Virus record (IMG/VR): IMGVR_UViG_3300020392_000010
Coordinates: 21,192 to 85,191 of that record
Strand: one strand, 5' to 3'
DNA: 64,000 nt
Source of the DNA: a virus
Shown: positions 19,861 to 39,394 of the stretch, in pieces
Layout of the letters: each line of letters opens with the position of its first letter
Numbering within the stretch: position 1 is the stretch's first letter
Position numbers and translations under genes: made by a program
Notes under the pieces: generated by a model
What the model saw: the letters and a program-made list of their open reading frames with translations, nothing else
Told to the model about the DNA's origin: nothing
The model's database searches: none

Positions 19861-21900
19861 ATGGGAGAAGGTAGGTTTCCAGGTTTGAACATAGGCAAAG
19901 GCAATGGTCTAGAAAATTTAAATATAAAGAACATTTTAGGGGGAAAAGCAACTGATCCATTTAGAACAGGAGGTAACGGTGCAGCCGGCGATGCTTTACT
20001 TGAAATGCAAGAAGTAGATTTACAAAAAGATGAAACTGCACGTATTCCAAATACACAGGAGGAAACAGTAAAAGCGGCTCCCTCTAGGTTTAACCCATTT
20101 AACGTATTTAGATTTAGAAAATTTGGTTTAGCACAGGGTGCATATGATTTAAAAAAGCATTCAGATACTCACCTTTATGGAGCAAGTGAAGGTTTAACGG
20201 CTCCTAAAGACCAAAACGTATTTAGTCAAGCTTTTAATTACATTAGTAATGTTCCTATTTCAAAAGAAGATGATCTTAAAGACTTTAATGTTGGAGAATA
20301 CCAAAAAACACAGAGAAACCCAACCGCTGCTCAAATAATAGAAAATTTTAGAGACGATAGTAATTTTAAAGTATTAGGACCTACTCCATTTGCATACAAT
20401 GATTTTATATTTTGTACACACTATGGTAAAATACCAAATAATAGATTAATTGCGCTTAGAAGATATCCGGGACCGGTTGAAGATAGCCTAAGACAATTCA
20501 ATGCCGCAGCTGAAGAGGTTGTTAACGTTCCACTTGCACAGGCCCTTACCTATTATGGAACTGGAACAGGTAACGATATAAATAACGTATTACCAATTAG
20601 CTGGGACGTTCCATGGGAGAAGAAAACCGCAGAGGTTAATGAGATTGACGGAAATGAAATACTTGTAGACGATGTAATAGCAGCAGCAGGTATTGAAAAA
20701 GGAGATAAACAGGCTTTAATTAGAGCCGCGATAGCTTCTCAAAAGGGGAACCAAGGTGCTCTTGAAGTAGCTGGATATGATAAAGAATTACAAGACTATA
20801 TTAGAAAAGCATATGGTCCGGATGGCCCGTACTGGAACAGGGTACTAGGACCTGTGAATGTTGTAAATTCAACTAGAATGAGAAAAAGAGGAATGGGAAC
20901 AACTATGTTTGATGCTCCTATTAAGCTTAAATTCAGTTATACTTTAAGATCATTTAATTTTGTTAACCCAAGGGTTGCATTTTTAGATTTAATGACAAAT
21001 ATATTGAGTCTTACATATAACACTGCTCCTTTTTGGGGAGGAGGATATCGATACTTTAAGAATCCAGGGGTGACTATTTCAAGTGCAGGTAGTGCATTAA
21101 TAGAACAGGGTAAAATAGTAGAAGGTGTAATATTAACCCTTAATGAATGGATGAAAAGCGCATCTGGAGCAACTGCTCAATTATTAAATCAAGTATCTGA
21201 CGCTCTTGAAAAAACAACTGGTGGAAAGCCACCAACAAGAAAAGAAACCCCATTAAAATATAGAAAAGCAGATGGTAAAACTTTAACTCAAACGGGTATG
21301 GATTTAACAAACGCAGTAATGGCAGGTAGGGCTGAATCTCTTATGCAAGCCCCTCTTTCATATAGGTCTCTGCTAGAAGGCCGGCCTGTTGGAGAATGGC
21401 ATATGACAGTAGGTAACCCAATGGACCCAATGGCAGCTATGGGTAACCTAATATGCACAGCCTGTGATATGAAATTTAGTAACGAACTAGGGGCAGATGA
21501 TTTTCCTAAATCAGTTGACTTTACAGTTACCCTTACTCATGGAAGACCTAGAGCCAAGCAAGATATAGAGAGTATATTTAACCTAGGTGGAGGACCTTTA
21601 TCATTCAGCAAAGTTGTTGCTCCAAGTTCTACTAAAAATACATTCGGAGGAGAGCCTAGTAATCTAACCAATATGGAAGGAGCAGAGGGTAATGTTAAAG
21701 TAGGCGTAATTAGGGGAAGCGGAGGCGCTAACACAGGCGTTAGTGAATATAATTTACAAGAAAAAGAAGCAGAGTATAAAGCCGATCCTCTTAAAGGTGA
21801 TGACAGTAACCCATATGCCGGAAGAGTAGGTAATCACTATGGTTCTATTTTTGGAAATTCCTCTCTTTTAAAGGATTACATAAAAATGTCAGCTACATAA
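19861..21900 (+). CDS. Large baseplate/tail structural protein
   Basis: 679 residues. N-terminal Gly/Asn-rich part, then a large mixed domain (PTPFAYNDFIFCTHYGKIPNN). The C-terminal part contains GEWHMTVGNPMDPMAAMGNL and FPKSVDFTVTLTHGRPR, a pattern I associate with tube-like tail or baseplate proteins of large myoviruses. Its stop overlaps the start of the gp53-like gene (TAATG) and it heads the operon containing hub, tube-like and spike genes. The exact T4 equivalent is uncertain. A TATATAATA lies 20 nt upstream as a weak promoter candidate. Confidence 0.7.
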   Translation: MGEGRFPGLNIGKGNGLENLNIKNILGGKATDPFRTGGNGAAGDALLEMQEVDLQKDETARIPNTQEETVKAAPSRFNPFNVFRFRKFGLAQGAYDLKKHSDTHLYGASEGLTAPKDQNVFSQAFNYISNVPISKEDDLKDFNVGEYQKTQRNPTAAQIIENFRDDSNFKVLGPTPFAYNDFIFCTHYGKIPNNRLIALRRYPGPVEDSLRQFNAAAEEVVNVPLAQALTYYGTGTGNDINNVLPISWDVPWEKKTAEVNEIDGNEILVDDVIAAAGIEKGDKQALIRAAIASQKGNQGALEVAGYDKELQDYIRKAYGPDGPYWNRVLGPVNVVNSTRMRKRGMGTTMFDAPIKLKFSYTLRSFNFVNPRVAFLDLMTNILSLTYNTAPFWGGGYRYFKNPGVTISSAGSALIEQGKIVEGVILTLNEWMKSASGATAQLLNQVSDALEKTTGGKPPTRKETPLKYRKADGKTLTQTGMDLTNAVMAGRAESLMQAPLSYRSLLEGRPVGEWHMTVGNPMDPMAAMGNLICTACDMKFSNELGADDFPKSVDFTVTLTHGRPRAKQDIESIFNLGGGPLSFSKVVAPSSTKNTFGGEPSNLTNMEGAEGNVKVGVIRGSGGANTGVSEYNLQEKEAEYKADPLKGDDSNPYAGRVGNHYGSIFGNSSLLKDYIKMSAT

Positions 21901-25096: not shown

Positions 25097-25867
25097 ATGG
25101 AGAAAGAATTAATTAATAAACAATTCTTAGGAACAGTTGAAGATTCTAGAGACCCTGATTTAGAAGGAAAATGCAAGGTTAGAGTATTTGGTATACATGG
25201 AGAAAAAATACCTATAGAAGATTTACCTTGGGCTTATCCAAAACAAAAATCATTATATTTTGGTAAAGATGGAAAAGCAGGCGCCATATCTATACCCAAG
25301 GACGGAGCAGTTGTAGCCGTTAGATTTGATAATGGAAACATATATTCCCCTGAATATTATGCAGTACAGGAATTAGCAGATGACATAAAAGAAGAATTAC
25401 AAAAAGAAGGTGAATATCATGGATCTCATTTTTTATTATTTGATGGAGATGAAGAATTAAAAGTATGGTTTACTAAGGAAAAAGGAATAACCATGCAACT
25501 AAAAGGATCTAGAATAAATATAGGTCAGGATAAAAAGATTGAAATAGAGCACGATCAAACACAATCAATTATTACATTAAAAGGATCAGAAATAGAAGTA
25601 ATAGCAGATAGTAAAATAAGCCTATCTTCAAATACTAAGATAGAACTTAACTCAAACGATATACATGTAAATGGAAAAAACGTTGTGTTAGGACCAAATA
25701 AATCACTTGCACAACCTGCAGTTTTAGGTACTTCACTTGTAACTGCTCTTTCTACAATGGCCGCTGTTATAGACACTAAATGGCCTCCAACCCCAGGGGC
25801 AACCACTGCTTCTATAACTCAAATACAACAAACTTTTTTATCTAAAACAACTAAGGTGACTCCTTAA
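25097..25867 (+). CDS. gp5: Baseplate central spike, gp5/VgrG-like without lysozyme
   Basis: 256 residues. Residues about 6-95 form the gp5 OB-fold (FLGTVEDSRDPDLEGKCKVRVFG...LPWAYP). Residues about 120-200 are a repetitive beta-helix-like stretch (GSEIEVIADSKISLSSNTKIELNSNDIHVNG). T4 gp5 carries a lysozyme domain between these parts; none is present here, so wall cutting would rely on another protein. The stop overlaps by 4 nt the stop of the convergent island gene, and no terminator is visible. Confidence 0.85.
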   Translation: MEKELINKQFLGTVEDSRDPDLEGKCKVRVFGIHGEKIPIEDLPWAYPKQKSLYFGKDGKAGAISIPKDGAVVAVRFDNGNIYSPEYYAVQELADDIKEELQKEGEYHGSHFLLFDGDEELKVWFTKEKGITMQLKGSRINIGQDKKIEIEHDQTQSIITLKGSEIEVIADSKISLSSNTKIELNSNDIHVNGKNVVLGPNKSLAQPAVLGTSLVTALSTMAAVIDTKWPPTPGATTASITQIQQTFLSKTTKVTP

Positions 25868-26472
25868 CGATAAAGATTACTAATATGTTCATATGGAAAA
25901 TACTTATTTATTCTAGAATTAGGAGTAACAGAGACTACGTTAAATCCTCGCGTCTGTAAAACTCTAAAATTATTTAGTATTCTAGAAAATCTAGAATCGT
26001 ACCACTTTTTATCAGCGTCATTACCTATGCCTTCTATCCTATTTTTTTTCCAAAAGTGACTAGGTGTTTTCCACGCTAAACTAACACCTGAAATATAAAA
26101 AGTAGTATCCTTTTTACTAAATGTATTTCTTTCTAAAATATCGATAGCCGTTGTTACGCAATCAGGGAATTTTTTTTTATTTGGTCTAGGGTATAGCTCA
26201 ATATAGTCAGGCATAGCTATTCTATTCCTAACACATTGTTTTTCAAGCCAATCGCTTGATACTATTTTAGTGTGTTTTTTAAGTTGCTCTAATTCCCTTG
26301 GGCAATTATCTAATTCTTGAAATATTTTAGGATCATTAAAAAACAAATAATTAGGTATAAGCTTCATCCAGGCCCTATTGGTTCCTACTGTTATTACATT
26401 TTGTGAAATTCTGGTAAAGTCTATTCTATCAATAGAAGGACCATTGCCAATAAGTAATACTTTATTTTTCAT
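25864..26472 (-). CDS. Glycosyltransferase/DUF115-like protein
   Basis: 202 residues. The N-terminal KVLLIGNGPS followed by VITVGTNRAW and YLFFNDPKIF, and later FYISGVSLAW, is shared with proteins at 31861-32493 and 33989-34597. This is the nucleotide-sugar-binding pattern of the DUF115/sialyltransferase-like superfamily. It overlaps the HAD gene by 11 nt, so they are coupled. A role in adding a sugar or phosphate-linked group to a glycan is inferred. Confidence 0.6.
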   Translation of the reverse strand: MKNKVLLIGNGPSIDRIDFTRISQNVITVGTNRAWMKLIPNYLFFNDPKIFQELDNCPRELEQLKKHTKIVSSDWLEKQCVRNRIAMPDYIELYPRPNKKKFPDCVTTAIDILERNTFSKKDTTFYISGVSLAWKTPSHFWKKNRIEGIGNDADKKWYDSRFSRILNNFRVLQTRGFNVVSVTPNSRINKYFPYEHISNLYR

Positions 26473-26764
26473 TTAACCAGTCGTAAGAATTCATATTTTT
26501 ATCATCTATGAATAGATCATAGGCGGGTTTTCCCATTTTTAATTCATGGAATTTTAAACCCCATTTATTTAATTGATACATGGTAATGTTTCTATGGTCA
26601 ATACCACTAACAGTGCCCCTTGCTGTCCACATTATTATAGTATTGCCCTTATCATATAACGTATTAACTTTATCTATAGCTTCAGGTATAGGGTACGCTG
26701 TATCATATCTCATAGGCTCAGCTAGCCTGCATATAGTATCGTCTATGTCTATGTAAATTACCAT
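26462..26764 (-). CDS. HAD-family phosphatase
   Basis: 100 residues, a minimal HAD without cap. Motif I is YIDIDDTIC (nucleophile D and D+2), motif II WTARG, and motifs III/IV GKPAYDLFIDDKN. Small HADs of this kind are found in capsule and lipopolysaccharide clusters, where they remove phosphate from sugar phosphates such as nonulosonate-9-P or Kdo-8-P. In this island it could serve sialic-acid precursor formation, since NeuB products from phosphorylated precursors need a phosphatase (inference). Confidence 0.75.
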   Translation of the reverse strand: MVIYIDIDDTICRLAEPMRYDTAYPIPEAIDKVNTLYDKGNTIIMWTARGTVSGIDHRNITMYQLNKWGLKFHELKMGKPAYDLFIDDKNMNSYDWLNEK

Positions 26765-26800: not shown

Positions 26801-27610
26801 TTAAAAATCATAATTATTTTTTTCAAAACATTTTACATAAAATGGAAAGCTAATATACATTACATGTTTAATTTCATTTTCAGTAGCTATCCTAGATATG
26901 TATTCAAAATCTTCAAACTTATTTTGTGAATTAGTATCGCACCATTCCCATTTAGGGTATCCTCTTTTATGTATAATATTTGCGGTTGAAGCAGATACGA
27001 CATCTTTACTTGAACCCTTTATTACGTCTTTTAAAGAAATCCACATATCAGGTAATCCGTTTATTTTAAATGGCTCTCCTCTCTTTTGTTTTATTATTGA
27101 TCCTTCAGGTTTTTCTCCGTTAGAAATATTATCATATTTTTTATAATTATATACTAAGCTGTTATTTATAATATAGCGTATATCTAATGAACTTTCTTTT
27201 TTAGGAAAATCTGATATTTTTTTTATCATATTACATAACTTGAAAATAGAATTTTTTAAAATATAATCATCTGAATCTAGATACATTATCCAATCTCCCT
27301 TTGCATTTTCTACCCCTTTTTGCTTTGGTAATCCTCGTTTATAATTGCCATTTGAATTCATAAGTGTTTCATCAGATTTAGGTATTTTAATTAATCTAAT
27401 ATCTTTGTAGTGTTTAAAATACGTATTGTATATTTGTTCAGTTATGGTGCATCCATCGGAGACTATTATGAGTTCCCAATTTTCTATGGTTTGCAATATT
27501 ACAGAGTACACTGCTCTTATGAATTTTGATTTTGGGTTTTTTCTAGATTCAGGGTAATCCCCTAAATAAGATTGCATTATAATACTTACGTTAATTTCAT
27601 TTTTTATCAT
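26801..27610 (-). CDS. GT2-family glycosyltransferase
   Basis: 269 residues. GT-A fold: N-terminal VSIIMQSYLGDYP, then QTIENWELIIVSDGC, ENAKGDWIMYLDSDDYI (metal-binding DxD as DSDD). Family 2 inverting transferases use nucleotide sugars on cytosolic acceptors. There is no membrane segment. Its start overlaps the GH16 gene by 14 nt. Donor and acceptor cannot be read from the sequence. Confidence 0.8.
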   Translation of the reverse strand: MIKNEINVSIIMQSYLGDYPESRKNPKSKFIRAVYSVILQTIENWELIIVSDGCTITEQIYNTYFKHYKDIRLIKIPKSDETLMNSNGNYKRGLPKQKGVENAKGDWIMYLDSDDYILKNSIFKLCNMIKKISDFPKKESSLDIRYIINNSLVYNYKKYDNISNGEKPEGSIIKQKRGEPFKINGLPDMWISLKDVIKGSSKDVVSASTANIIHKRGYPKWEWCDTNSQNKFEDFEYISRIATENEIKHVMYISFPFYVKCFEKNNYDF

Positions 27611-28301
27611 AAGGGGTATACTTAAAATTTTTGCAAATCATTTCTGATACATGGTCTGTGCTTTTTAAACTAGCGTGTTCTTTTTTTATACTGTTGTTTA
27701 TAATTACATTTAAAGTTTTTCCACGTAAATGAGATACTGTAAAATTATCAGTTATATCTCTTACTAATTTATTATCAAAGTATATTTTAATTTCGTTTTC
27801 TTTCCATTCTAAACTATATTTGTGAAAATCTTTGCTAGGGCATTTCCAACCTAGCCAGTGGTTTTCAGCACCTATACTATAATTATGTGGCTCTTTTCCT
27901 AGATGCACATTTGTTTGTACTTTAAAAAAATTTCCCCATAATGCGTCTATATTCCAATTAAAATAGCTTGATTTTTTATTTGAATACCCTTCAAATACGT
28001 CTATTTCAGGTGGCCAACTTTCCCATGCCCACATCCAAAAAGCCGGCCATAAATAAGGTCCTTTTGGTAATTTAATATCTATGTCAAATCTACCATATCC
28101 AAATTTTTCAGTACAGTGAATTAGCCCTACCCCATATGGTGAAGTAACACCGTCTATTTCCTTTGGGTTGTAATGAGTTTTTAATATTAGATCCTCTCCT
28201 TGTATTTCAACAGCCGATTTATCATACCAACATTCTGGTTTTCCAGGGTGCATAAGACCCCATCTCTCTCCAACTTTCCATGTGTATCCTTGCCATTTCA
28301 T
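27597..28301 (-). CDS. GH16-family endoglycanase
   Basis: 234 residues. The catalytic signature PEIDVFEG (E99, D101, E104) is intact. Upstream FGYGRFDIDIKLPKG and LWPAFWMW are typical of GH16 beta-glucanases, laminarinases, agarases and carrageenases. No signal peptide, carbohydrate module or tail-fibre repeat, so it is either cytosolic, released at lysis, or a virion part by an unseen route. It is the first gene of a leftward set with GT2, HAD and a DUF115-like gene. Substrate unknown. Confidence 0.85.
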   Translation of the reverse strand: MKWQGYTWKVGERWGLMHPGKPECWYDKSAVEIQGEDLILKTHYNPKEIDGVTSPYGVGLIHCTEKFGYGRFDIDIKLPKGPYLWPAFWMWAWESWPPEIDVFEGYSNKKSSYFNWNIDALWGNFFKVQTNVHLGKEPHNYSIGAENHWLGWKCPSKDFHKYSLEWKENEIKIYFDNKLVRDITDNFTVSHLRGKTLNVIINNSIKKEHASLKSTDHVSEMICKNFKYTPYDKK

Positions 28302-28394
28302 AAAATTAATATTTATTATTATATATTAATGCCTATTTTATCAACTGTGTGTTAAATGTAAATATCAACATGCAGCTGCCTTATAAATAAATAT

Positions 28395-28967
28395 ATGAAA
28401 AACAAAGAACTACTTAAGGATTTAAAAGAATATGATAGATTTGGAAAAGATAAAGAAATATCTAAGGAAATATCTAAGGAAATAGGCGTTAGCGAATCAG
28501 TATTTACATATGGTTCTACTCCATATGAAACAGCTTTAGCATTAATAAAATCAGTTAATAAAAAACCTAGTAGATTTGTAGTTGTTGGAACAAGTATAGG
28601 TTGGATGAATTTTTACTGGAATGAAATATATCCAAATATACCCTCTCTAGGTATAGACATACACTATGGTAGAATTGAATTTGGAAATTCTTTAATTAAA
28701 AAACATAAACTATCTAATATAGAATTAAAAGTAGATGATTTATATAAATTTTCATTTAAAGATACTGATTTAATATGGTTAAGCAACTGCTGTTTTGATA
28801 CAAATGAAAATGCGAAAATAGTAAATGATATAATTGCAAAAAACCCTAATGTTTCTATAATTTCATATAAACCGTTTGATTCTAGCGTAAGGAGTAAAGT
28901 TACTAGACACAGTTTAGCCGTTAGCTGGATGCCACTTCAACCCTTTTGGGTGTATGATACGAAATAA
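28395..28967 (+). CDS. SAM-dependent methyltransferase-like protein
   Basis: 190 residues. Rossmann motif I FVVVGTSIGWMNFYW and the acidic end of strand 2 LGIDIH, followed by LKVDDL and DLIWLSNCCFD, recall Dot1-like or related class I methyltransferases. Motif I lacks the usual GxGxG glycines, so binding is uncertain. It starts a rightward cassette of four genes with short gaps or overlaps (flavoprotein-like, SET-like, ATP-grasp). TATAAATA at 28382 lies only 5 nt before the ATG. Confidence 0.5.
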   Translation: MKNKELLKDLKEYDRFGKDKEISKEISKEIGVSESVFTYGSTPYETALALIKSVNKKPSRFVVVGTSIGWMNFYWNEIYPNIPSLGIDIHYGRIEFGNSLIKKHKLSNIELKVDDLYKFSFKDTDLIWLSNCCFDTNENAKIVNDIIAKNPNVSIISYKPFDSSVRSKVTRHSLAVSWMPLQPFWVYDTK

Positions 28968-28976
28968 ATTTATAAA

Positions 28977-29945
28977 ATGAAAAAATTTGATATAGCATAT
29001 GTTTCTTCAAATATTTCATTTCTATTAGACTGTTATATTAATTCTTACAAAGGTTTAAATCTTTGTATAATAGATATGAAAGATGATTTAGGTGGGGCAT
29101 GGCAAATATCAGATGCTAGAGTACATTTACAATGGGTAAGTAATGAACATAAAAAATATATTTCTGTCATTAATGAGGACTTAAAAAAAGTTGATAGTAA
29201 ATTTCAAATAAAAGGGCCGCTTAAAAATGTTAAAACAATAGAGGATAAAAAATATACAGATTATTCACTTTATCACATTAATTTGGGTTCTAATTTGTTT
29301 ATAGAAGAGCTTGTTGAAAAAATTAAACGTAAAAACAATGTTGAAATAATTAAAGATAATATTAAAGAAGTTACGTTAGAGAATAATGTTTTTAATATTT
29401 TTGGTAAAGAAACTTACTTATCTAACAAATTATATTTGACTAATAATTTAAAATTAGATAAAATAGCTTTAAATAAAAAGGAATATAAATTGTATTCACA
29501 GGATAAAAAATATAATCACCTTTTTATTGAGGTTAAATCTAAAGATATTAAACCGTTAGACATTTTAATATGTGAAGGAAATGGCTTTAAATGGGATGGT
29601 AGAGAAATGTTTAATGCTGAAAAACAAAAAATTCATAGAAATTTGAATAATTCTTTGTTCTTTATGATAAACGTAAGTGAGTTATATAAAGATTTAAAAA
29701 ATACTCAACTTTTTTCATGTCGAATAAAAAATAAAAACTTTATAGAAGATTTTAAAAATTATTTACTTTATAACAATATAACAGAAAAAGATGTGGAAAT
29801 AAAAATATTAGAAGATGATGAGTATACCCAACATAGGCTCATAAATGCATACGCAATACCAAAAACCAAAAATTTAGAAATATTTACACAGATGAATTAT
29901 TTTAAATATTTAGTAAAATTAAATCAATTGAGAAATGAATATTAA
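28977..29945 (+). CDS. Flavoprotein-like oxidoreductase, divergent
   Basis: 322 residues. Near the N-terminus FDIAYVSSNISF leads into LCIIDMKDDLGGAWQ, the E/D-x6-GG arrangement found after the first Rossmann strand in FAD-dependent enzymes such as amine oxidases and UDP-galactopyranose mutases. The dinucleotide-binding GxGxxG is degenerate (YVSSNIS). SNLFIEELVEKIK and VEIIKDNIKEV fit the same family. Possibly degenerate or specialised. Overlaps the SET-like gene by 11 nt. Confidence 0.4.
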   Translation: MKKFDIAYVSSNISFLLDCYINSYKGLNLCIIDMKDDLGGAWQISDARVHLQWVSNEHKKYISVINEDLKKVDSKFQIKGPLKNVKTIEDKKYTDYSLYHINLGSNLFIEELVEKIKRKNNVEIIKDNIKEVTLENNVFNIFGKETYLSNKLYLTNNLKLDKIALNKKEYKLYSQDKKYNHLFIEVKSKDIKPLDILICEGNGFKWDGREMFNAEKQKIHRNLNNSLFFMINVSELYKDLKNTQLFSCRIKNKNFIEDFKNYLLYNNITEKDVEIKILEDDEYTQHRLINAYAIPKTKNLEIFTQMNYFKYLVKLNQLRNEY

Positions 29946-30567
29946 AAAAGGATACAGTATACCTAAATGTTTAGAACTAAGACAATCGCCATTGCACGGA
30001 CTCGGCTGCTTTGCAATAGAATTTATTCCAGCTGGTAGTAATTTAGGTATTTGTCACTATTATGACTATAGTGAAAGACCAGTTAAACATTTAAGAAACC
30101 CCATGGTTGGTTTTTTTAATTACTCAGTCAATAAAAACGCATGGCTACCTATAGTGAAAAAAGAATTTATAAATGGAAACGGTTGGGTTACTGAACTGGT
30201 AACAACCAAAGATATAGAAAAAGGTGAAGAAATTTTATTAAGGTATAGTTGGTATGACCCTACAAAACCTGATACTAAAAAAAATAAACACTACATTCCC
30301 TTACCGGATTGTGTTTCTATTGAAAAAAGAAATGGGGTGTATACCCTCTATGCAACTAAGGATATTATGAAAGATTTTGATTTTGGGTATTCTCATAGTT
30401 ATTATGATAAATCAGATTTATATGAGCCTAATCCAATAGGAGGATATTTGCTGGAATCTACTATACCTAATTGTGATATGTTTAAAAAAGATAAAGAGCT
30501 ATATTTAAAATCAAAAAGAAATATAAAAAAAGGAGAATCAATAAGCGTAAATTATGAAGTATTATAA
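29935..30567 (+). CDS. Double SET-domain-like protein
   Basis: 210 residues. Residues about 10-115 have SET features: LHGLGCFAIEFIPAGSN, GFFNYSVNKNAW (the NHS-like part), TTKDIEKGEEILLRYSW. Residues about 120-210 repeat the pattern in shorter form: YTLYATKDIMKDFDFGYS, LESTIPNCDMF, NIKKGESISVNYEVL. The second copy resembles an internal duplication. SET domains transfer methyl from SAM to protein Lys; substrate here unknown. Overlaps both neighbours in the cassette (11 and 14 nt). Confidence 0.6.
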   Translation: MNIKKGYSIPKCLELRQSPLHGLGCFAIEFIPAGSNLGICHYYDYSERPVKHLRNPMVGFFNYSVNKNAWLPIVKKEFINGNGWVTELVTTKDIEKGEEILLRYSWYDPTKPDTKKNKHYIPLPDCVSIEKRNGVYTLYATKDIMKDFDFGYSHSYYDKSDLYEPNPIGGYLLESTIPNCDMFKKDKELYLKSKRNIKKGESISVNYEVL

Positions 30568-31312
30568 TTATTTACCGCCTAGCTTAACTCAGTGGTCCCC
30601 TGAATTTGATTGCTCGTACATTTACCCTAAGTATAAAACATATATTGAAAATAATTATATGTTAACTCTAAGGCATAAAAATAAAATAGAATGTGAAACC
30701 ATGAAAAAACTTTATAACAAATATGAAGTTAAAAAGTTTTTTGAAAAGCACGGTTTAAATATACCTACACTATATTGTTATTCTACTAAAGATTCTGATA
30801 TTTCACATGCGTTAAGAGAAAAATATGTTGCTAAACCTGCTCACATGTCAGAGAATGATGGAGTTTTTATTAACGATAAAGACTTTGAAAAAGTAGATAA
30901 AAAACTTAGAGAATGTTTAAAGTCTTCACCAAGATCAACTGAACCGGAAATGATGAAACAAGCTGAAAAAGGCATGTTAGTTGAAGAGTATATTGAACAT
31001 GATTATGAATTTAAGGTATTTGTACTATATGGGTGCCCAATAGTTGGTGATTTAAGAAACGGATCAAAAGAATGGCATAGAGTAGATATGATAGATAAAA
31101 ACAATAATTATTTTAATTGGAATAAGGAATACGAAATATGTAAACATATTGCAAAAGAACTAAAAATAGATTTTTTTAGAATAGATTTTTTTTACAATAA
31201 AAAAGAGGACAAATTTTATGCAGGGGAAATGGCATTTAGACCTTCTACGCTACTTGGTAAAGAAATAGAAAAATTTATACTCTCTAAGTGGAAAAAAATG
31301 GCTAAATACTAA
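30554..31312 (+). CDS. ATP-grasp protein, TupA-like
   Basis: 252 residues. YVAKPAHMSENDGVF (ATP-binding Lys), LVEEYIEHDYEFKVFVLYG, DFFRIDFFY and FYAGEMAFRPS match the TupA-like ATP-grasp pattern, a family whose founder forms teichuronopeptide, a cell-wall polymer. ATP-grasp enzymes join a carboxylate to an amine or similar via acyl phosphate. Last gene of the four-gene cassette; its stop overlaps the convergent membrane-protein stop by 4 nt. Substrate unknown. Confidence 0.75.
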   Translation: MKYYNYLPPSLTQWSPEFDCSYIYPKYKTYIENNYMLTLRHKNKIECETMKKLYNKYEVKKFFEKHGLNIPTLYCYSTKDSDISHALREKYVAKPAHMSENDGVFINDKDFEKVDKKLRECLKSSPRSTEPEMMKQAEKGMLVEEYIEHDYEFKVFVLYGCPIVGDLRNGSKEWHRVDMIDKNNNYFNWNKEYEICKHIAKELKIDFFRIDFFYNKKEDKFYAGEMAFRPSTLLGKEIEKFILSKWKKMAKY

Positions 31313-31749
31313 GAAATTATAAGCTTTCCACAAACTATACCAAGTGCTCCAAATACTATTAGCAAAATCAAACCTAACCATGATCCTTTAGTGGCTCTTT
31401 TAGAATTCATTGCAAATGCAAAATAATAAGAAGCCGCTACAAAAAACAAAATAATGTTTGAAAACAAATCATTTTTAGAAGGATTAGTGTATATAACTAA
31501 TATAGATGCAAGAAACGCTTGAGCAAATGGAAATAACGCTGCGAGAACTATTGTGTATGGTTTTTCATAGTTTACCTTAAGCCACCTAGTAAAAATCCTG
31601 GTCCTTACCTGAAGGCCTTTTATCAGCGTTCTTCTCTTAATATTATACGATATATATGAAGCTCTAAGGTTTAAATAAAGCACAAGAGTATACGTAAATA
31701 TTCCAAGAGTAGGAAGTGCAAAAATACATAGAAACATTAAAATATCCAT
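31309..31749 (-). CDS. Multi-pass membrane protein
   Basis: 146 residues with four hydrophobic segments: MFLCIFALPTLGIFTYTLVL (about 4-23), IVLAALFPFAQAFLASILVI (about 67-86), a third about 97-113 and LGLILLIVFGALGIVCGKLI at the C-terminus. A basic loop (KRRTLIKGLQVRTR) follows the first. No family recognised. Lies alone between the ATP-grasp gene and the sialyltransferase-like gene; superinfection exclusion or a glycan-export role are guesses. Confidence 0.65.
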   Translation of the reverse strand: MDILMFLCIFALPTLGIFTYTLVLYLNLRASYISYNIKRRTLIKGLQVRTRIFTRWLKVNYEKPYTIVLAALFPFAQAFLASILVIYTNPSKNDLFSNIILFFVAASYYFAFAMNSKRATKGSWLGLILLIVFGALGIVCGKLIIS

Positions 31750-31860: not shown

Positions 31861-32493
31861 CTATATGCCTAATATATTTGATATGTACTCATCGGCTTGT
31901 ACTTTACCCGATAATATATGATTTTTTATAATCTCATTTTGAAGAAATTGCTTATGAAATTTTAGTCTTCCTTTGTTTAATTCTCCTGGGTCAGATGTCT
32001 CTGGAATATAATTCTTGATGTGATGGTTATTGAAATCTGTCTCTGAATACATAGACATTCCAGTTATGTAAAATGATTCAGGGTTCATGTTAATTATTTC
32101 ATCTATGATATAAGTTCCCATTAAAGGAGCTGCCTTAATACGCTTTTTATATTTAAAAAATTCCTTATGTATTAGTCTTATTTTAAGATTAGGGTTTCTA
32201 TATCTCATATATAATTTTCTATAGTCATATTTTAAAGATAAATATTTTAAACCATTTATTCTATAGTCTTTAATAGACATATCCCCATGTATGGCAAAAT
32301 GCTGATTTACATACAAAGAATCACAACGCTTACCGTAATCTTTTTGTAATTCTTTAATTACAGGAAATGCACCGTTTGTTCTAATTACAATATCGTGAGA
32401 ATCTATAAACAGTCCTTTCTTTTTACCAATTAAAGTAACCGCGGGACCTACAAATATTACTCGCTTACCTTTAATAAAGTTACTATAATCCAC
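31861..32493 (-). CDS. Sialyltransferase-like protein (GT29-type)
   Basis: 210 residues. GKRVIFVGPAVTLIGKKKG, DSHDIVIRTNGAFP and FYITGMSMY recall the sialyl motifs L/S of GT29 (V-G-x-(G/A), D-x-V-x-R-x-N). This is the last gene of a tight operon: DUF115-like, NeuA, NeuB, this gene, with gaps of 1-4 nt. That context strongly favours transfer of a CMP-nonulosonate to an acceptor glycan or protein. Acceptor unknown; no membrane segment. Confidence 0.65.
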   Translation of the reverse strand: MDYSNFIKGKRVIFVGPAVTLIGKKKGLFIDSHDIVIRTNGAFPVIKELQKDYGKRCDSLYVNQHFAIHGDMSIKDYRINGLKYLSLKYDYRKLYMRYRNPNLKIRLIHKEFFKYKKRIKAAPLMGTYIIDEIINMNPESFYITGMSMYSETDFNNHHIKNYIPETSDPGELNKGRLKFHKQFLQNEIIKNHILSGKVQADEYISNILGI

Positions 32494-32497
32494 TTGT

Positions 32498-33355
32498 TTA
32501 TTTTCTAAGAGATTTCATTTTTTCAAGTTCTGATCCTATTACTTTTCTTGGACCATACCCTGACATAGCTTTTTCTATGTCTCTAATACCTTTTACTAGT
32601 TTTATAAGTCCGCCCGGTTCAACTGAAGCCATTTGATCAGAACCCCATAATGTTCTGTCTAATGTAATATGCCTTTCTATCCAAGTAGCACCTATTGGAA
32701 TAGTAGCCATTGTAGTGACTAATCCAAATTCATGCCCTGAATATCCAACTTCTGATTCTGTATTTTTAATAAGCCATTTTATATAGCCTAAATTAAGTTC
32801 ATTTATAGGCGAAGGATATGTTGAATTGGTGTGCATTATTACTTCTGGTTTACAGGTTTTAATGCACTTTTGAACCTCTTCTTCTGTACTCATTCCGGTG
32901 CTTATTATCAAAAAATCAGACTTGTCTTTTGCATACGAACATAGGTCAATGTTTGTTATTAAAGCAGATGGAATCTTCATAATAAAACTACCATGGTTAG
33001 AATAATTATTGTCTGTAATAAAGTCAACGGATAACTTATCCCAAACTGAAACAAACCAACCTATTTCTTTTTCTTGACAATACCTGTCTATTTCGTCAAA
33101 CTCTTTCTTACCAAATTCTATATCATGCTTATACTGAATATATGTAATTTCTTCTTCTCTCCATGGAACACGCTTAGGTTTATTTTTTTGATCATCAGGT
33201 ACGCATATATCGGGTGTTCTTTTTTGAAATTTTACCCAATTACAACCTGCTACACACGCTGCGTCTATTAGTTTTTTTGCGTTATCTAAAAACTTAGATT
33301 TATCGTTTCCATATGCATAATTTATGCCTATTTCAGCTATTATTTTTACAGCCAT
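32498..33355 (-). CDS. neuB: N-acetylneuraminate (nonulosonate) synthase NeuB-like
   Basis: 285 residues. NeuB TIM barrel with GCNWVKFQKR, MHTNSTYPSP, VGYSGHEFG and IERHITLDRTLWGSDQ, the conserved active-site elements for condensing PEP with N-acetylmannosamine or a related sugar. Common NeuB proteins of about 340 residues end in a SAF antifreeze-like domain; this one stops before it, so the usual partner-subunit lid is missing or comes from elsewhere. Works with NeuA downstream in the pathway, encoded 1 nt upstream. Confidence 0.9.
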   Translation of the reverse strand: MAVKIIAEIGINYAYGNDKSKFLDNAKKLIDAACVAGCNWVKFQKRTPDICVPDDQKNKPKRVPWREEEITYIQYKHDIEFGKKEFDEIDRYCQEKEIGWFVSVWDKLSVDFITDNNYSNHGSFIMKIPSALITNIDLCSYAKDKSDFLIISTGMSTEEEVQKCIKTCKPEVIMHTNSTYPSPINELNLGYIKWLIKNTESEVGYSGHEFGLVTTMATIPIGATWIERHITLDRTLWGSDQMASVEPGGLIKLVKGIRDIEKAMSGYGPRKVIGSELEKMKSLRK

Positions 33356-33356
33356 G

Positions 33357-33992
33357 CTATTTTTTATTTTTTTTAAACTCGTTTAAATCATCTAACGTAT
33401 CTACATCTATCACTTTTTTATTTATGGGTAAAAAATAAGTATTGTTATTATATAAGTTATTATTTAAATTATTTATTACATTTGACTTAAACAAACATAT
33501 ATAATGACTTAATTCAAAGCATTCAGGGTAATCTTGTCTTCTATATAAATCATGATGAAAAAGTTGAGAACCTTTGTTATTTTTTTCCTCTTTTAGCATC
33601 AAAAAAGGACTAATATCTAGTGGGTGCTTACATAATAAAGAGTCTAGATTAAGCGAGTCAAAACAAACCATAGCTGTTTGAACATCTTTCCATTTCCTAA
33701 GCGGATAGGTTAAATATAACATTAAAATCGTTTCATCTAGTATATTTAAAGTATCTATAGTATATTTCATTATATCTTTAGAAGAAGCTTTATCAGAAGA
33801 CACCTCTGGTGTTCTATTTAAAACATTAAACTTATATTTAATGGCCTGTTTTTTTATATGTTCGTCATCTGTAGTTACATATGTTAAGTGCTTCATTGCT
33901 TCTGGTATAATATTAGCAGTATATTCAAATAGTTTTCTATTTTTTAAAGGAACGCCTTTTGAACCTTTTCTAGCTGGTATAATTATTTTCAT
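33357..33992 (-). CDS. neuA: CMP-sialic acid synthetase NeuA-like
   Basis: 211 residues. IPARKGSKGVPLKNRK is the NeuA/KdsB CTP-binding motif; VTTDDEHIKK and LYLTYPLRKWKDVQ follow in family order. It activates a nonulosonate with CTP to the CMP donor. The start overlaps the previous stop and the stop lies 1 nt from neuB, so the operon is coupled. Somewhat shorter than bacterial NeuA (about 230 or more). Confidence 0.88.
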   Translation of the reverse strand: MKIIIPARKGSKGVPLKNRKLFEYTANIIPEAMKHLTYVTTDDEHIKKQAIKYKFNVLNRTPEVSSDKASSKDIMKYTIDTLNILDETILMLYLTYPLRKWKDVQTAMVCFDSLNLDSLLCKHPLDISPFLMLKEEKNNKGSQLFHHDLYRRQDYPECFELSHYICLFKSNVINNLNNNLYNNNTYFLPINKKVIDVDTLDDLNEFKKNKK

Positions 33993-34597
33993 AAAGATTT
34001 AAATTTTTCTATTGATATTTTAGGTAATGAATCTATTTTACTATCTTGACTTAAATTATAAAAGTCTACGTTTCTTTTATTTAATTGTAACTTTAATACT
34101 CTATAGCCTTCGTTAACTTGTTTCAATTTATTCATTTGCGATAAAGGATGATCACCATCTTTTATATAAAAGTGATGAGGTGTAAAATCAACGCCTATTA
34201 ACCCTATTTTTGAAAAACCCATTTTATAAGCTATGCATACGGCTACATAAGGTGAATTTAAACAGTAATCAACTTTATTATCTGAATCTAGATTGGAAAG
34301 CCTACGATTTCCTAGCTCAAAAATTATTGTTTTTTTATTATTCCAGCCTTTTACGCATGTAAATAAAGCTTTAGTAGAAGATTCAGTTATTAAATTTCTT
34401 CTATTTTGATTAAATCTAATTGGGTGATCTGTTACTACTAAATAAGTAGGGGTAAATAGTGCTGGTACATCATTAACACCTATTGTTATAAAGTTTTTAT
34501 AGTTACTTTTTATTTTATTTAAAGACACGCCGCAACCGCATACTATAACAGACTCTCCTTTATGAATATTTTTAAAGTTTGATAAAGTATTTGTCAT
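33989..34597 (-). CDS. Glycosyltransferase/DUF115-like protein, first gene of sialic-acid operon
   Basis: 202 residues from the ATG at 34597; the frame is open to 34648 but the extra part looks random and runs into the dnaJ leader. GESVIVCGCGVSLNK, FITIGVNDVP, YLVVTDHPIRF and IGLIGVDF match the DUF115-like protein at 25864-26472 in order. It starts the leftward neuA-neuB operon with a 4-nt overlap. A glycan-transfer role is inferred. Confidence 0.65.
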   Translation of the reverse strand: MTNTLSNFKNIHKGESVIVCGCGVSLNKIKSNYKNFITIGVNDVPALFTPTYLVVTDHPIRFNQNRRNLITESSTKALFTCVKGWNNKKTIIFELGNRRLSNLDSDNKVDYCLNSPYVAVCIAYKMGFSKIGLIGVDFTPHHFYIKDGDHPLSQMNKLKQVNEGYRVLKLQLNKRNVDFYNLSQDSKIDSLPKISIEKFKSL

Positions 34598-34652
34598 TTT
34601 CGATATATAAATTAAACTACATTGTTTTATACAAAAAAACCTAATCAATGTT

Positions 34653-35669: not shown

Positions 35670-37673
35670 GTGAATAATTCAAGCTTAAAACCAAGTAATT
35701 TCATAGACGTTTCTGATAAAAAAGAAAATGATTTAGTATTGATCGTTGAAAACGTAGGTGAAAAACTTAATGTAAAAACCAATGAAACTAACAACACTAT
35801 TTTAGAAGGTGTATGCGCAGTTTTTGGACAAAAGAATAACAATCAAAGAGTTTACGAAAAAGATGAATACTTGCCTCATCTAGAATACTTAAAGGAAAAA
35901 ATTAAGACAAGGCAACTTGTTGGAGATTTAGATCATCCGCCTTCTTTTGAAGTTACTCTTAAAAGCGCTTCTCATATAATTGAAGGCTTAGACCATGATG
36001 GAGGAGATAAAGTAAACATTAAACTTAGAATTTTAGAAAACACGCCAAATGGAAAAATTGCAAAAGCATTAATAGATGGAGGAGTTAATATATCTATTTC
36101 ATCGAGAGCAGCAGGTCAAGTTTTAAACGAAGGTAAAGTTAAACTTCATAGAATATTTACATACGATTTAGTTGCTGAACCGGGGTTTACAGAAGCTGTT
36201 TTAAAGAAAACAGTTAACGAATCCTTAAAAGAAAATTTCGAAATGATAACTGAAAATTATAGTTTATTAAAAGAAAATTCTTTTATAAATAAAGAAAAGT
36301 TAGAAGATATCTCTGAAAATTTAAATTTTTCAAATAATTATAAATTTTACAAGATAAATAACAAAAATAATAAAGAGCTGACTAATAGTTTAAGCAATCA
36401 AAATAATAAGAGCAAAATGAACGAGTATGTTAATAAAAATGATATGAATCATTATACTGAGATAGTTAAAGAGAAATTTGAATCATTACAAGCTGAAATG
36501 GACAAAATTAAGTCTGTTAATGAAGCTGATTCAAAAGAGGTGAAAACAACAGATGTTTCACCAACTTCAGGTATTGGAAAATACGTTAATTATTTAGCTG
36601 AAAAAGTAGAAAACTTAACTAAGTACACTGACTACTTGTCTGGTAAATTAAACCAATCTGTTAAGTACACTGAACATGTAGCCGAAACTACTAACAATAG
36701 TATAGAATATCAAAACTACATTGGTGAAAAACTTAATCAGAGTTTAAATTATCAAAACTATTTAGGTGAAAACTTAAATAAAAGCATTAATTACCAAGAT
36801 TATTTAAAAGAGAACTTAAATAAAAGTATTAATTATCAAACATACCTTGCTGAAGAATTAGATAAAGGCATTCAATATACTGAATATGTAGCAGAAGGTG
36901 CTAATAAAGGAATTGAATTTGCTGAATATATTGCTGAAAATGCTCAAATGAATAGAGAATACGTTGAATACGTAGCAGAAAAATCTTCAAAAGGAATTAG
37001 TTATGCTGAATATATTGCTGAATCATTAAACTCAGGTAAATTTACTCCTAATTCTAACTTATTAAGCAATGTTAGCGGATTAAATGAAAACAAGCAAATT
37101 GAAATGATTACTGAAGGAATAGATGCTGTAATAAACACAGTCAAAAGTGAATCAGCTAGTGCCGTACTAGAAAATAAATATCCTTTCTTAAAAGTATTAT
37201 CTGAAAAGAAAAAAGAAGCATTTTATGATCTAGATACTAATACTAAACAAGCTGTTGTAGAAGCAGTTAGAGCTTCAGTATGGTTTAATGAAGCAGATGT
37301 AACTGGTATTATTAGTGCAGTCGTAGAAAACGCTAATAAGTCTATTCCAAACCATCTTAGATATATGCCAGATGAGTATAAAGCATCTTGGGAGAAGATG
37401 AATGAAGCTGAAAAAAATCAAATTCATACTAAAACTCAACTTTATACTTTAAATACTCCTTATCAAGTTAAATCTTTCTGGGATGAAATAGATTTCAGAG
37501 GAATTAATGAAAGAATTGAAAGAGAAAAAGAAAATAGAAAATTACAACAAATCAACGAGAGCCAAAGTACAGAAGGTGCAATCCCGGTAGACAGGGTAGT
37601 TGATATGACGAGAGGTTACTCTCAGACTTACATAGACTCTCTTATGAGAGGTGCGGAAAATCGCAACAAATAA
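35670..37673 (+). CDS. Prohead protease gp21 fused to scaffold gp22-like core protein
   Basis: 667 residues, GTG start. Residues about 35-185 are a T4 gp21-type (S77) protease: NQRVYEKDEYLPHLEYL, GDLDHPPSFEVTL (H89), NISISSRAAG (Ser 142-145) and YDLVAEPGF (D166). An Asn-rich linker (about 225-249) follows, then a scaffold part with eleven exact-length 14-residue repeats (305-458) and a helical C-terminus ending in LQQINESQS, a likely I-N-E cleavage site. In T4, gp21 and gp22 are separate genes. An internal ATG at residue 250 may yield free scaffold. Confidence 0.85.
   Translation: MNNSSLKPSNFIDVSDKKENDLVLIVENVGEKLNVKTNETNNTILEGVCAVFGQKNNNQRVYEKDEYLPHLEYLKEKIKTRQLVGDLDHPPSFEVTLKSASHIIEGLDHDGGDKVNIKLRILENTPNGKIAKALIDGGVNISISSRAAGQVLNEGKVKLHRIFTYDLVAEPGFTEAVLKKTVNESLKENFEMITENYSLLKENSFINKEKLEDISENLNFSNNYKFYKINNKNNKELTNSLSNQNNKSKMNEYVNKNDMNHYTEIVKEKFESLQAEMDKIKSVNEADSKEVKTTDVSPTSGIGKYVNYLAEKVENLTKYTDYLSGKLNQSVKYTEHVAETTNNSIEYQNYIGEKLNQSLNYQNYLGENLNKSINYQDYLKENLNKSINYQTYLAEELDKGIQYTEYVAEGANKGIEFAEYIAENAQMNREYVEYVAEKSSKGISYAEYIAESLNSGKFTPNSNLLSNVSGLNENKQIEMITEGIDAVINTVKSESASAVLENKYPFLKVLSEKKKEAFYDLDTNTKQAVVEAVRASVWFNEADVTGIISAVVENANKSIPNHLRYMPDEYKASWEKMNEAEKNQIHTKTQLYTLNTPYQVKSFWDEIDFRGINERIEREKENRKLQQINESQSTEGAIPVDRVVDMTRGYSQTYIDSLMRGAENRNK
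36582..37043 (+). repeat. Eleven tandem 42-bp (14-aa) coding repeats in scaffold
   Basis: Each unit follows (Y/F)xx(Y/H)(L/V/I)x(E/G)xxxxxxx, for example YQNYLGENLNKSIN. Eleven units without any gap cover residues 305-458. Period 14 equals two heptads, so a continuous coiled-coil rod is expected. The DNA copies have diverged at synonymous sites, so the repeat is maintained at protein level. Confidence 0.95.
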
Positions 37674-37690
37674 AAAAAATCAAATAGAAA

Positions 37691-39394
37691 ATGTCACGTA
37701 CAAAAGTTTTTAAACGTACTTCAGATTCTAGAATCCTTAATACTTGGAAGCCATTATTGGAAAGCCATGGTGTTAGTGCTGAAAGCGGGAAACAAGAGTG
37801 GTTAGCAGAATATGCTCACAACCATGCTATTTTTGATAATAGCGCTCCTGTATTTGAGCAAACTGCACCTGGGTTGTTTTTTCAACAACCAGGTTCTGTA
37901 TTAGGTAGAGGCGCTGCTGTAGCACCTACTGCCAGTCAGACGCCTTTTTCAGATGCTGGTGTTAAAGGTTCTTATGCCGATTCTGGTTCTGGAGATAAGT
38001 TTCCATCGTTACTTCCAGTTGCTATTCAAGTAGCTGCAAAAACGATTGGGTTTGATCTTGTTCCTGTTGTGCCTATGGATTCTCCTGTTGGGTTCTTACC
38101 TTACTTAGATTATTTATATGCAGGCGGTCGAACAGATTCAGAATTTGAACCATATATGGTTAAAATTGAAGGAGCAACAGTAGATGCTCTTGAAACTGCA
38201 GGTTTCGCCGGAGTTAATGACGGAACAAACGCCAATCAGGCAATCACAATCGCTGGTGCTCAAGGTTCTTACGAATTAGTAGGATTCTCAAGAGTAGATG
38301 GTTTATTAATAATGAAAGTTCTTAATGACGGTCTTAACCCAGCTGCAAGTGTTGATGCTGACCTTTCAGGTAATAATATTACTGCGATTGGTTCAACGAA
38401 CGGTACTTTCCAAATAGCTGGAGCGGTATCATTGGTTTCTGCTTTAGAAAACCATATCTCTGGATTTACATCTCAGTCAACTGAGGTTCAAGATCCTGAT
38501 TTTGTTGGTCCTTACTTACCTGAAACAGGTGGTGTTCCTGGATCAATGACAAGAGAACAAAGTGAATTGTCTAAATACAGACAAATGGGTCTTAGAATGT
38601 TCACTAAATTTGTTGAAGCTAAATCTGATCAAGTGTCTATCTCAGCATCTGTTGAGCAGATCCAAGATCTTAACAGAGTTTGGAACTTCGACGTTATCTC
38701 TATGTTAGAGAACGTTGCAGTTAACGAACTTGCACAGTCTATCAACAAAAGATTGGTTGACAGAATCTTCACATTAGCTGATGATCACAATGTTGAAGTA
38801 AACATGGTAGAGGGCGCTGGAATCACTACACTAGACTTAAATGCTGGTACCGGTGGTTTTGAGAACACTTCTACTCTTCAAAGAAGATTAGTCACTAAGA
38901 TTCTTGAATTAGCAAACTTAATTTACCATAGAGGTAGATTTGGTGCTGGTACATTCATGATTACCAACGGTAGAGTTGCATCTGCATTAGCTGATGTTGC
39001 TGGTTACTCAATTGCACAGGCTCCATCTGATATGGGCGGTGTTGCTGGTAACCTATACCCAGCTGGTAAAGTTTATGGTGTTCAAGTATATGTTGATCCT
39101 AACTTAAGCTTTGGAGATTCTAGAATCTGCATTGGTCGTAAAGGATCTGATGAAGAACCAGGTGTTAAATTCTTACCATATATTATGGCTGAGTCTTTAC
39201 AAACTATCTCAGAAGGTACTTTCTCACCAAAAATTGGAATGAAATCACGTTATGCGATTACTGAAGCAGGATGGCATCCAGAAACTCAATATGTAAATAT
39301 GGAAGTTACTGGAGACTTAGCTGTTCTTACAGGCGGAGCTGCCCCAAGTGGACCAGCTACACCATCACCAGTTGCACCAATAGTTGCACCATAA
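37691..39394 (+). CDS. gp23: Major capsid protein, T4 gp23-like
   Basis: 567 residues (T4 gp23: 521). T4-type features: PIRSL-like N-terminal arm, EWLAEYAHNHA with a probable protease site after L-A-E (residue 40), GAKSDQVSIS-like core (FVEAKSDQVSISASVEQIQDL), ANLIYHRGRFGAGTFMITN and GMKSRYA..EAGWHPE. Codon use is visibly less A/T-biased than neighbours, as expected for the most abundant phage protein. Ends in an Ala/Pro-rich tail and is followed by a strong terminator. Follows the protease-scaffold gene by 17 nt. Confidence 0.95.
   Translation: MSRTKVFKRTSDSRILNTWKPLLESHGVSAESGKQEWLAEYAHNHAIFDNSAPVFEQTAPGLFFQQPGSVLGRGAAVAPTASQTPFSDAGVKGSYADSGSGDKFPSLLPVAIQVAAKTIGFDLVPVVPMDSPVGFLPYLDYLYAGGRTDSEFEPYMVKIEGATVDALETAGFAGVNDGTNANQAITIAGAQGSYELVGFSRVDGLLIMKVLNDGLNPAASVDADLSGNNITAIGSTNGTFQIAGAVSLVSALENHISGFTSQSTEVQDPDFVGPYLPETGGVPGSMTREQSELSKYRQMGLRMFTKFVEAKSDQVSISASVEQIQDLNRVWNFDVISMLENVAVNELAQSINKRLVDRIFTLADDHNVEVNMVEGAGITTLDLNAGTGGFENTSTLQRRLVTKILELANLIYHRGRFGAGTFMITNGRVASALADVAGYSIAQAPSDMGGVAGNLYPAGKVYGVQVYVDPNLSFGDSRICIGRKGSDEEPGVKFLPYIMAESLQTISEGTFSPKIGMKSRYAITEAGWHPETQYVNMEVTGDLAVLTGGAAPSGPATPSPVAPIVAP

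Follow-up and report, generated by a model that had tools for sequence, protein, structure and literature searches.

The best-described counterparts of the genes considered here are the flagellin glycosylation systems of Campylobacter, Clostridium, and Magnetospirillum, in which NeuB and NeuA supply a cytidine monophosphate (CMP)-activated nonulosonate to a Maf transferase. Maf enzymes O-glycosylate serine and threonine residues of flagellin from CMP-nonulosonates and can be promiscuous toward the donor (PMC11339370), and this glycosylation comes before chaperone binding and export (PMC4065374). We analyzed a gene set in a 64,000-nt stretch of viral DNA (the window; positions 21,192 to 85,191 of the 85-kb virus fragment IMGVR_UViG_3300020392_000010) that resembles these systems in its genes for CMP-nonulosonate synthesis and for a soluble, cytoplasmic transferase of the DUF115 type. 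Unlike them, it is phage-encoded, comes without flagellin, and has only the central Maf domain, and it combines a NeuB lacking the SAF domain with a small HAD-type protein, 2 extra sialyltransferase-type enzymes, and, in its relatives, a variable cassette.

A second counterpart is the route through the 9-phosphates of Kdn and N-acetylneuraminic acid (Neu5Ac) in vertebrates and Bacteroides thetaiotaomicron, with which the phage genes share a synthase, a HAD phosphatase, and a cytidylyltransferase that are encoded together. Cellular relatives of the phage NeuB also carry a phosphatase scoring near the model for Kdn-9-phosphate phosphatase. Unlike in this route, the phage synthase is SAF-less, the phage HAD protein belongs to another subfamily, and the phage substrate is putative. 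Among phages, virion glycosylation is established for mycobacteriophages (Freeman et al. 2023, as cited in PMC12619734), and our best guess is that here too phage-encoded glycosyltransferases decorate virion proteins; the differences are that the window encodes dedicated synthesis and CMP activation of a nonulosonate-type sugar and that its virion target is putative. Large marine phages are also known to carry sugar biosynthesis genes for lipopolysaccharide (LPS) and capsule, including NeuA, KdsA, and Gmd (PMC5332604), but the present set has NeuB instead of KdsA, has Maf-, GT29-, and GT42-type transferases, and is accompanied by no genes for polymer export or ligation that we could find in the related viral records. 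No description of a phage module of SAF-less NeuB, HAD protein, NeuA, and Maf-like transferase was found in open-licence full-text literature, and literature on sialic acid in huge phages or sialic acid synthase in phage genomes yielded nothing relevant; the module combines known kinds of system, namely nonulosonate pathways, Maf-type transfer, and phage glycosylation.

A predicted phage nonulosonate module

There is good support for these genes constituting a module that makes, activates, and transfers a nonulosonate-type sugar. The initial annotation had described 4 minus-strand open reading frames (ORFs), and these are present where it placed them (Table 1), successive neighbors being separated by a 4-nt overlap, a 1-nt gap, and a 4-nt gap as it had reported. 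Its identification of NeuB, NeuA, and a GT29-like protein is upheld by Pfam matches over the cutoffs: PF03102 for NeuB (6e-58; 196.6 bits against a cutoff of 22.1), CTP_transf_3 PF02348 for NeuA (4.4e-6), and Glyco_transf_29 PF00777 for the GT29-like protein (1.3e-6, the match in the window spanning mainly motif L). The positions of NeuB that bind phosphoenolpyruvate (PEP) and metal were checked and are all conserved, the retained residues being E25, K53, Q55, K129, S132, Y186, S213, H215, E234, H236, and D247 in meningococcal numbering. NeuA also matches PseF (7.7e-16, below cutoff) and aligns over its full length with the Neisseria meningitidis CMP-Neu5Ac synthetase 1eyr, retaining the IPARKGSKG and IDVDT motifs. 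Against PHROGs, NeuA and the GT29-like protein had no match, and NeuB had only a weak one to a family of unknown function. Families, PEP- and metal-binding residues, gene linkage, and predicted folds thus agree with the earlier reading of the 4 genes, in which a nonulosonate is condensed, activated with CMP, and transferred.

Scanning viral contigs with NeuB returned 14 further loci at 64–85% identity, and a profile-guided scan found relatives encoded in 399 viral stretches, 80 of which were kept. NeuA alone recovered relatives at just 46–49% identity, and the GT29 gene of the window alone recovered none, its relatives coming via NeuB; the PF02348 cytidylyltransferase family is present in 46 of 50 NeuB-bearing viral records. 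The 4 ORFs are not a product of chance, because relatives occur in these 14 contigs and 399 stretches and because the median pairwise ratios of nonsynonymous to synonymous substitution rates (dN/dS) are 0.23 for NeuB, 0.36 for NeuA, and 0.30 for the DUF115-like gene. At least 2 more core genes, for the small HAD-type protein and a GT42-like protein, lie about 5 kb along from the 4-gene set, and since a sugar phosphate is the suggested substrate, the earlier description of the 4 genes as a unit complete except for its amino-sugar precursor finds no support in that form.

The explanation that we regard as best, and hold at about an even chance, is a phage-encoded, soluble cytoplasmic nonulosonate pathway that follows a sugar-phosphate route and decorates a phage protein. 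The SAF-less NeuB would join PEP to a sugar of the host, most probably a sugar-6-phosphate such as mannose-6-phosphate, to give a nonulosonate-phosphate; the small HAD enzyme would remove the phosphate; and NeuA would make the CMP-sugar. Within the infected cell, the Maf-type transferase would then transfer the sugar straight to a protein of the phage, most likely one of the virion, and the GT29-like and GT42-like enzymes would add further nonulosonate residues. In relatives, the glycan would be varied by an exchangeable cassette of other glycosyltransferases and of pyruvyl-, methyl-, and acyltransferases. The phosphorylated substrate, the order of the steps, and the virion target are what we infer in this scheme; its computed basis is family membership, intact residues for PEP and metal, the absence of SAF and E134, the linkage of NeuB, HAD, and NeuA genes, the predicted Maf and GT42 folds, purifying selection, cassette exchange, and the nondetection of lipid-carrier families.

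Maf-like, GT29-like, and GT42-like transferases

The leading gene of the operon had first been labeled DUF115-like. Its protein matches MptE-like/DUF115 PF01973 below cutoff (4e-5; 23.8 bits against 34.6), a relative (L008) scoring just above it, and the structure closest to its predicted model is the Magnetospirillum Maf 5mu5 (Z 15.4 over 193 residues), a DUF115-type transferase. The next structural matches are archaeal HPPK (Z 12.2) and CstII (Z 11.8), and the protein also has a weak match to WaaZ. The model has a predicted local distance difference test (pLDDT) score of 87, low at the doubtful N-terminus; a longer form of the ORF runs from a TTG (33989–34648, 219 aa), and the ATG start in Table 1 is the one backed by relatives. 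The flagellin-related N- and C-terminal domains of Maf are absent, the phage ORF having 202–219 aa against the 632 residues of the 5mu5 chain. Relatives in which the operon likewise starts with this gene are L002, L005, L009, L012, L013, L015, L029, L032, L035, L045, and L053. Fold and context suggest that the phage protein may act like Maf.

A profile of 12 relatives of the GT29-like protein matches ST3Gal-I at 2.8e-27; the L-motif is retained, and an invariant histidine (H180) is aligned with a histidine near the C-terminus of ST3Gal-I. A 484-kb uncultured phage (L017, LR756508.1, 9256–14077) carries a SAF-less NeuB beside several GT29-like genes, and its record contains 7 PF00777 match segments and nucleotide-sugar genes resembling the GDP-fucose pathway.

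The GT42-like protein matched no family in family-library searches, and its sequence similarity to CstII is weak (best E 0.13–0.19), confined to an N-terminal GNGPS...IDF stretch. Its AlphaFold2 model (pLDDT 95.1) matches CstII in Foldseek at 3e-6 and superimposes on it with Z 12.9 over 193 residues, and its 10 best structural matches are all sialyltransferases (CstII, Cst-I, and the P. multocida enzyme; Z 10.9–12.9). We predict from this model a GT42 sialyltransferase-type enzyme with the GT-A-variant fold of CstII. The gene occurs near NeuB in 40 viral loci, next to the baseplate hub.

Acceptor of the sugar

By hydropathy, membrane segments are lacking from the core enzymes and from nearly all proteins of the cassettes. 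The families of the Wzx flippase, Wzy/WaaL, and undecaprenyl-phosphate sugar transferases (Bac_transf) were not found in 50 viral records, and the positive controls for these searches matched in 13, 9, and 9 of 14 genomes, respectively. Soluble enzymes, no lipid-carrier families, a Maf-like fold, and a place among virion genes together favor a soluble phage protein as acceptor, and a virion protein rather than the host surface is our leading guess. Three ends had been listed in the initial annotation without a choice among them; decoration of a phage protein is now favored over change of the host surface, and mimicry of animal sialic acid finds no support.

If the same enzymes made and activated the nonulosonate for the LPS core or capsule of the host at the inner membrane, the phage would instead change the host surface, for example as a block to superinfection. 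We consider this the main rival reading, though a less likely one. GT42 and WaaZ-like enzymes act on bacterial LPS, and the weak WaaZ match of the Maf-like protein could be read in this light, while the hypervariable cassettes would fit a change of surface antigen equally well; the marine virus with NeuA, KdsA, and Gmd was itself read as encoding LPS and capsule synthesis (PMC5332604). The evidence against it is that Maf is the best fold match of the first core gene, that the module is fixed among virion genes in one lineage, and that Wzx, Wzy/WaaL, and undecaprenyl-phosphate sugar transferases were not found in the 50 records.

Several points weigh against the proposed decoration of a virion protein and the pathway leading to it. 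No acceptor was identified, and the Ser/Thr-rich stretches in virion proteins are modest. The Maf-like protein consists of the central Maf domain only, which also resembles archaeal HPPK, the substrate of the HAD phosphatase is putative, and a KdsC-like enzyme is found near only part of the cellular NeuB relatives. Most of the viral records are fragments, among which absences are no proof. The T4-type late promoter TATAAATA is not enriched (20 found against 25.6 expected) and so gives no evidence on timing; scanning the upstream regions for 9-mers without bias revealed no clear signal. The window was also searched for a mucin-like acceptor rich in Ser/Thr, and none was found.

A SAF-less NeuB and its likely substrate

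Pfam detects only the NeuB domain in the window protein, which stops before the C-terminal SAF domain with Arg314, and its conserved active-site E134 (meningococcal numbering) is replaced by leucine, the residue at this position in 87 of 93 viral NeuB homologs. Nearly all complete viral homologs have 270–306 aa and no SAF domain. Meningococcal NeuB needs the SAF arginine 314, the R314A variant being inactive (PMC6795526); SAF-less NeuB proteins occur elsewhere, and the 290-residue 6ncs chain looks like one.

NeuB neighbors were clustered in 93 viral and 66 genome loci (92 viral after removal of one bacterial locus). In 78 of the 92 viral loci, the gene for the HAD-type protein of about 101 aa lies no more than 6 genes away from NeuB, in more than one gene order. 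When the test was reversed to start from the HAD protein, 69 of the 80 best loci had NeuB in the available flank; because the loci share common descent, these counts do not represent independent events. The DIDDT, WTARG, and DDK motifs of the HAD protein are kept in 60 distinct sequences, and its matches to NCBIfam HAD_phos_BT0820 (3e-5) and EcbF-BcbF (1e-3) are both below cutoff; judged by these features, it is predicted to dephosphorylate the NeuB product. Cellular NeuB relatives shorter than 300 aa have a KdsC-like neighbor in 12 of 28 cases and NeuC in 2 of 28, and those of 300–380 aa have them in 4 and 5 of 23, respectively. One representative KdsC-like neighbor reaches 180 bits with the KdsC model and 167 bits with that for Kdn-9-phosphate phosphatase (cutoff 180), below both cutoffs. 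NeuC (PF02350) is present in 1 of 50 related viral records. A Moritella match in the phage collection (L019) was rejected because it is not a phage but an ordinary capsule locus of a bacterium, which includes a NeuC-type epimerase.

The lack of the SAF arginine and of E134, the rarity of NeuC, and the phosphatase linkage point to a sugar phosphate, perhaps mannose-6-phosphate, as substrate rather than N-acetylmannosamine (ManNAc). For the same reasons, "sialic acid" as the initial annotation had it finds no support in that form. A sugar-phosphate substrate with a dedicated phosphatase is the simplest reading that the sequences suggest; the phosphorylated route itself we place slightly on the probable side, and mannose-6-phosphate as the sugar is a guess. 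Condensation of mannose-6-phosphate to give Kdn has been described (PMC7845648), and no additional precursor gene would then be needed.

On the canonical bacterial route, the host would provide NeuB with unphosphorylated ManNAc, or with a legionaminic or pseudaminic acid precursor, and the role of the HAD protein would have nothing to do with the sugar. TIGR03569, the N-acetylneuraminate synthase model, is indeed the closest in NCBIfam, though NeuB remains far below its cutoff (172.9 bits against 399.65), and 29 of the 92 viral loci have DegT/SDR sugar genes, which could make amino sugars, in the vicinity of NeuB. Set against the missing arginine and E134, the single NeuC among 50 records, and a phosphatase linkage found in viruses and cells alike, this leaves the canonical route improbable.

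NeuB proteins 50–58% identical to the phage copy are encoded on metagenome-assembled or single-cell contigs (L098–L104) labeled Planctomycetota, SAR202, Saprospiraceae, Woesearchaeota, Alphaproteobacteria, and Thermoplasmatales, and in some of these cases phage DNA may have been binned together with cellular sequence. At L034:10409–11143 and at a few other loci, another NeuB-like protein, shorter than the first at about 244 aa, is encoded close to NeuB, and a cysteine-rich protein of about 100 aa and unknown family is found at L050:982–1284 and in 35 viral loci, mostly immediately after NeuB.

Genomic context and an exchangeable cassette

The module lies between baseplate and capsid genes, as originally reported: the baseplate hub (25097–25867) is on one flank, and the head protease and major head protein (35670–39394) are on the other. 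Genes for portal, DNA polymerase, helicase, and topoisomerase II are found elsewhere in the window, and the best matches of the major head protein are uncultured huge phages and Lak phages (32–38% identity).

Within one phage lineage, the position of the locus between capsid module and baseplate hub is fixed. DnaJ-like, protease, and capsid genes lie to one side, and divergently from them run the DUF115-like gene and NeuA, a variable stretch, NeuB, small genes, the GT42-like gene, and the baseplate hub. The variable stretch holds GT8, GT2, RgpF, polysaccharide pyruvyltransferase, FkbM methyltransferase, hexapeptide acyltransferase, and Gfo/Idh-type genes. Loci L005 and L007, which share 97% identity across 11.6 kb, have different cassettes upstream of that stretch, and L013/L029 and L055/L071 have similar ends and unrelated middles. 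The window is a collapsed version in which NeuA adjoins NeuB and the 6.4-kb cassette of L005 is absent. The first cassette gene (L002:1335–3794, L009:4378–6723, L012:3127–4824, and L013:3877–5610) has a shared N-terminal part of about 290 aa and differing C-terminal glycosyltransferase domains (GT8 with RgpF, GT8 alone, or GT2 in L005), and seems to be a constant adaptor with swappable catalytic ends.

Median dN/dS is 0.23–0.40 across the core genes with enough pairs, and the core is therefore maintained as protein by purifying selection. That the window copy is a decaying remnant yielding no finished glycan, as its lost cassette and a core split by the inserted block at 27597–31749 might suggest, is very improbable, given that the core ORFs are all intact with their key residues, that window pairs have dN/dS of 0.12–0.39, and that NeuB adjoins GT29 in L010 too. 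More tentatively, we propose a widespread phage system in which a SAF-less synthase with its dedicated HAD phosphatase would turn a sugar phosphate into a nonulosonate, a minimal Maf would link this sugar to virion proteins, and cassettes exchanged between fixed ends would give the particles a serotype-like variable glycan coat.

Host and other features of the window

Shine-Dalgarno-like words precede 2 of 59 ATG-start genes in the window, with 2.95 expected from shuffles, and the upstream regions are A-rich. Few Shine-Dalgarno words and A-rich leaders fit a Bacteroidota host, which suggests a host of this type for the window phage. The moraphages are large aquatic phages with DnaJ genes, 4 core glycosyltransferases, and predicted Bacteroidota hosts (PMC12619734); the traits in common with the window phage are only aquatic origin, DnaJ, and glycosyltransferases, a likeness of traits and not a phylogenetic placement.

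A row of methyltransferase-like, unknown 322-aa, SET-domain, and ATP-grasp genes at 28395–31312 may be a separate protein-modification set; its methyltransferase, SET, and ATP-grasp genes are common to L005–L007, and ATP-grasp pairs have dN/dS of about 0.12. A GH16 glycoside hydrolase (PF00722, 4e-18) at 27597–28301, also kept in L005–L007, is possibly a virion- or lysis-associated polysaccharide-cutting enzyme.

Table 1. Features of the predicted nonulosonate module and its surroundings (window coordinates)
Feature	Coordinates	Strand	Remarks
Maf/DUF115-type nonulosonate transferase candidate	33989..34597	-	202 aa, ATG at 34597
NeuA, CMP-acylneuraminate-type cytidylyltransferase	33357..33992	-	211 aa; PF02348
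NeuB, SAF-less nonulosonate (or nonulosonate-phosphate) synthase	32498..33355	-	285 aa; PF03102
GT29-type sialyltransferase-like protein	31861..32493	-	210 aa, GTG start; PF00777
Small HAD-type phosphatase, predicted	26462..26764	-	Conserved HAD motifs
GT42-type sialyltransferase-like protein	25864..26472	-	202 aa; predicted fold
GT2 glycosyltransferase, possible member of glycan set	26801..27610	-	PF00535 7.7e-12; relatives in few related loci
Divergent promoter region between Maf-like and DnaJ-like genes, putative	34598..34652	.	TTGTATAA-type near-palindrome recognizable in relatives (alignment by eye)

Implications

The pair of SAF-less NeuB and HAD protein is a direct test case for NeuB-like catalysis without the essential SAF arginine, and if the proposed pathway is correct, O-sialylation would have in the minimal Maf an enzyme that is both small and soluble. 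Many large aquatic phages would then produce an acid sugar of their own, activated with CMP, for the decoration of proteins, and a variable, negatively charged virion glycan would bear on their adsorption, host recognition, and persistence in water.

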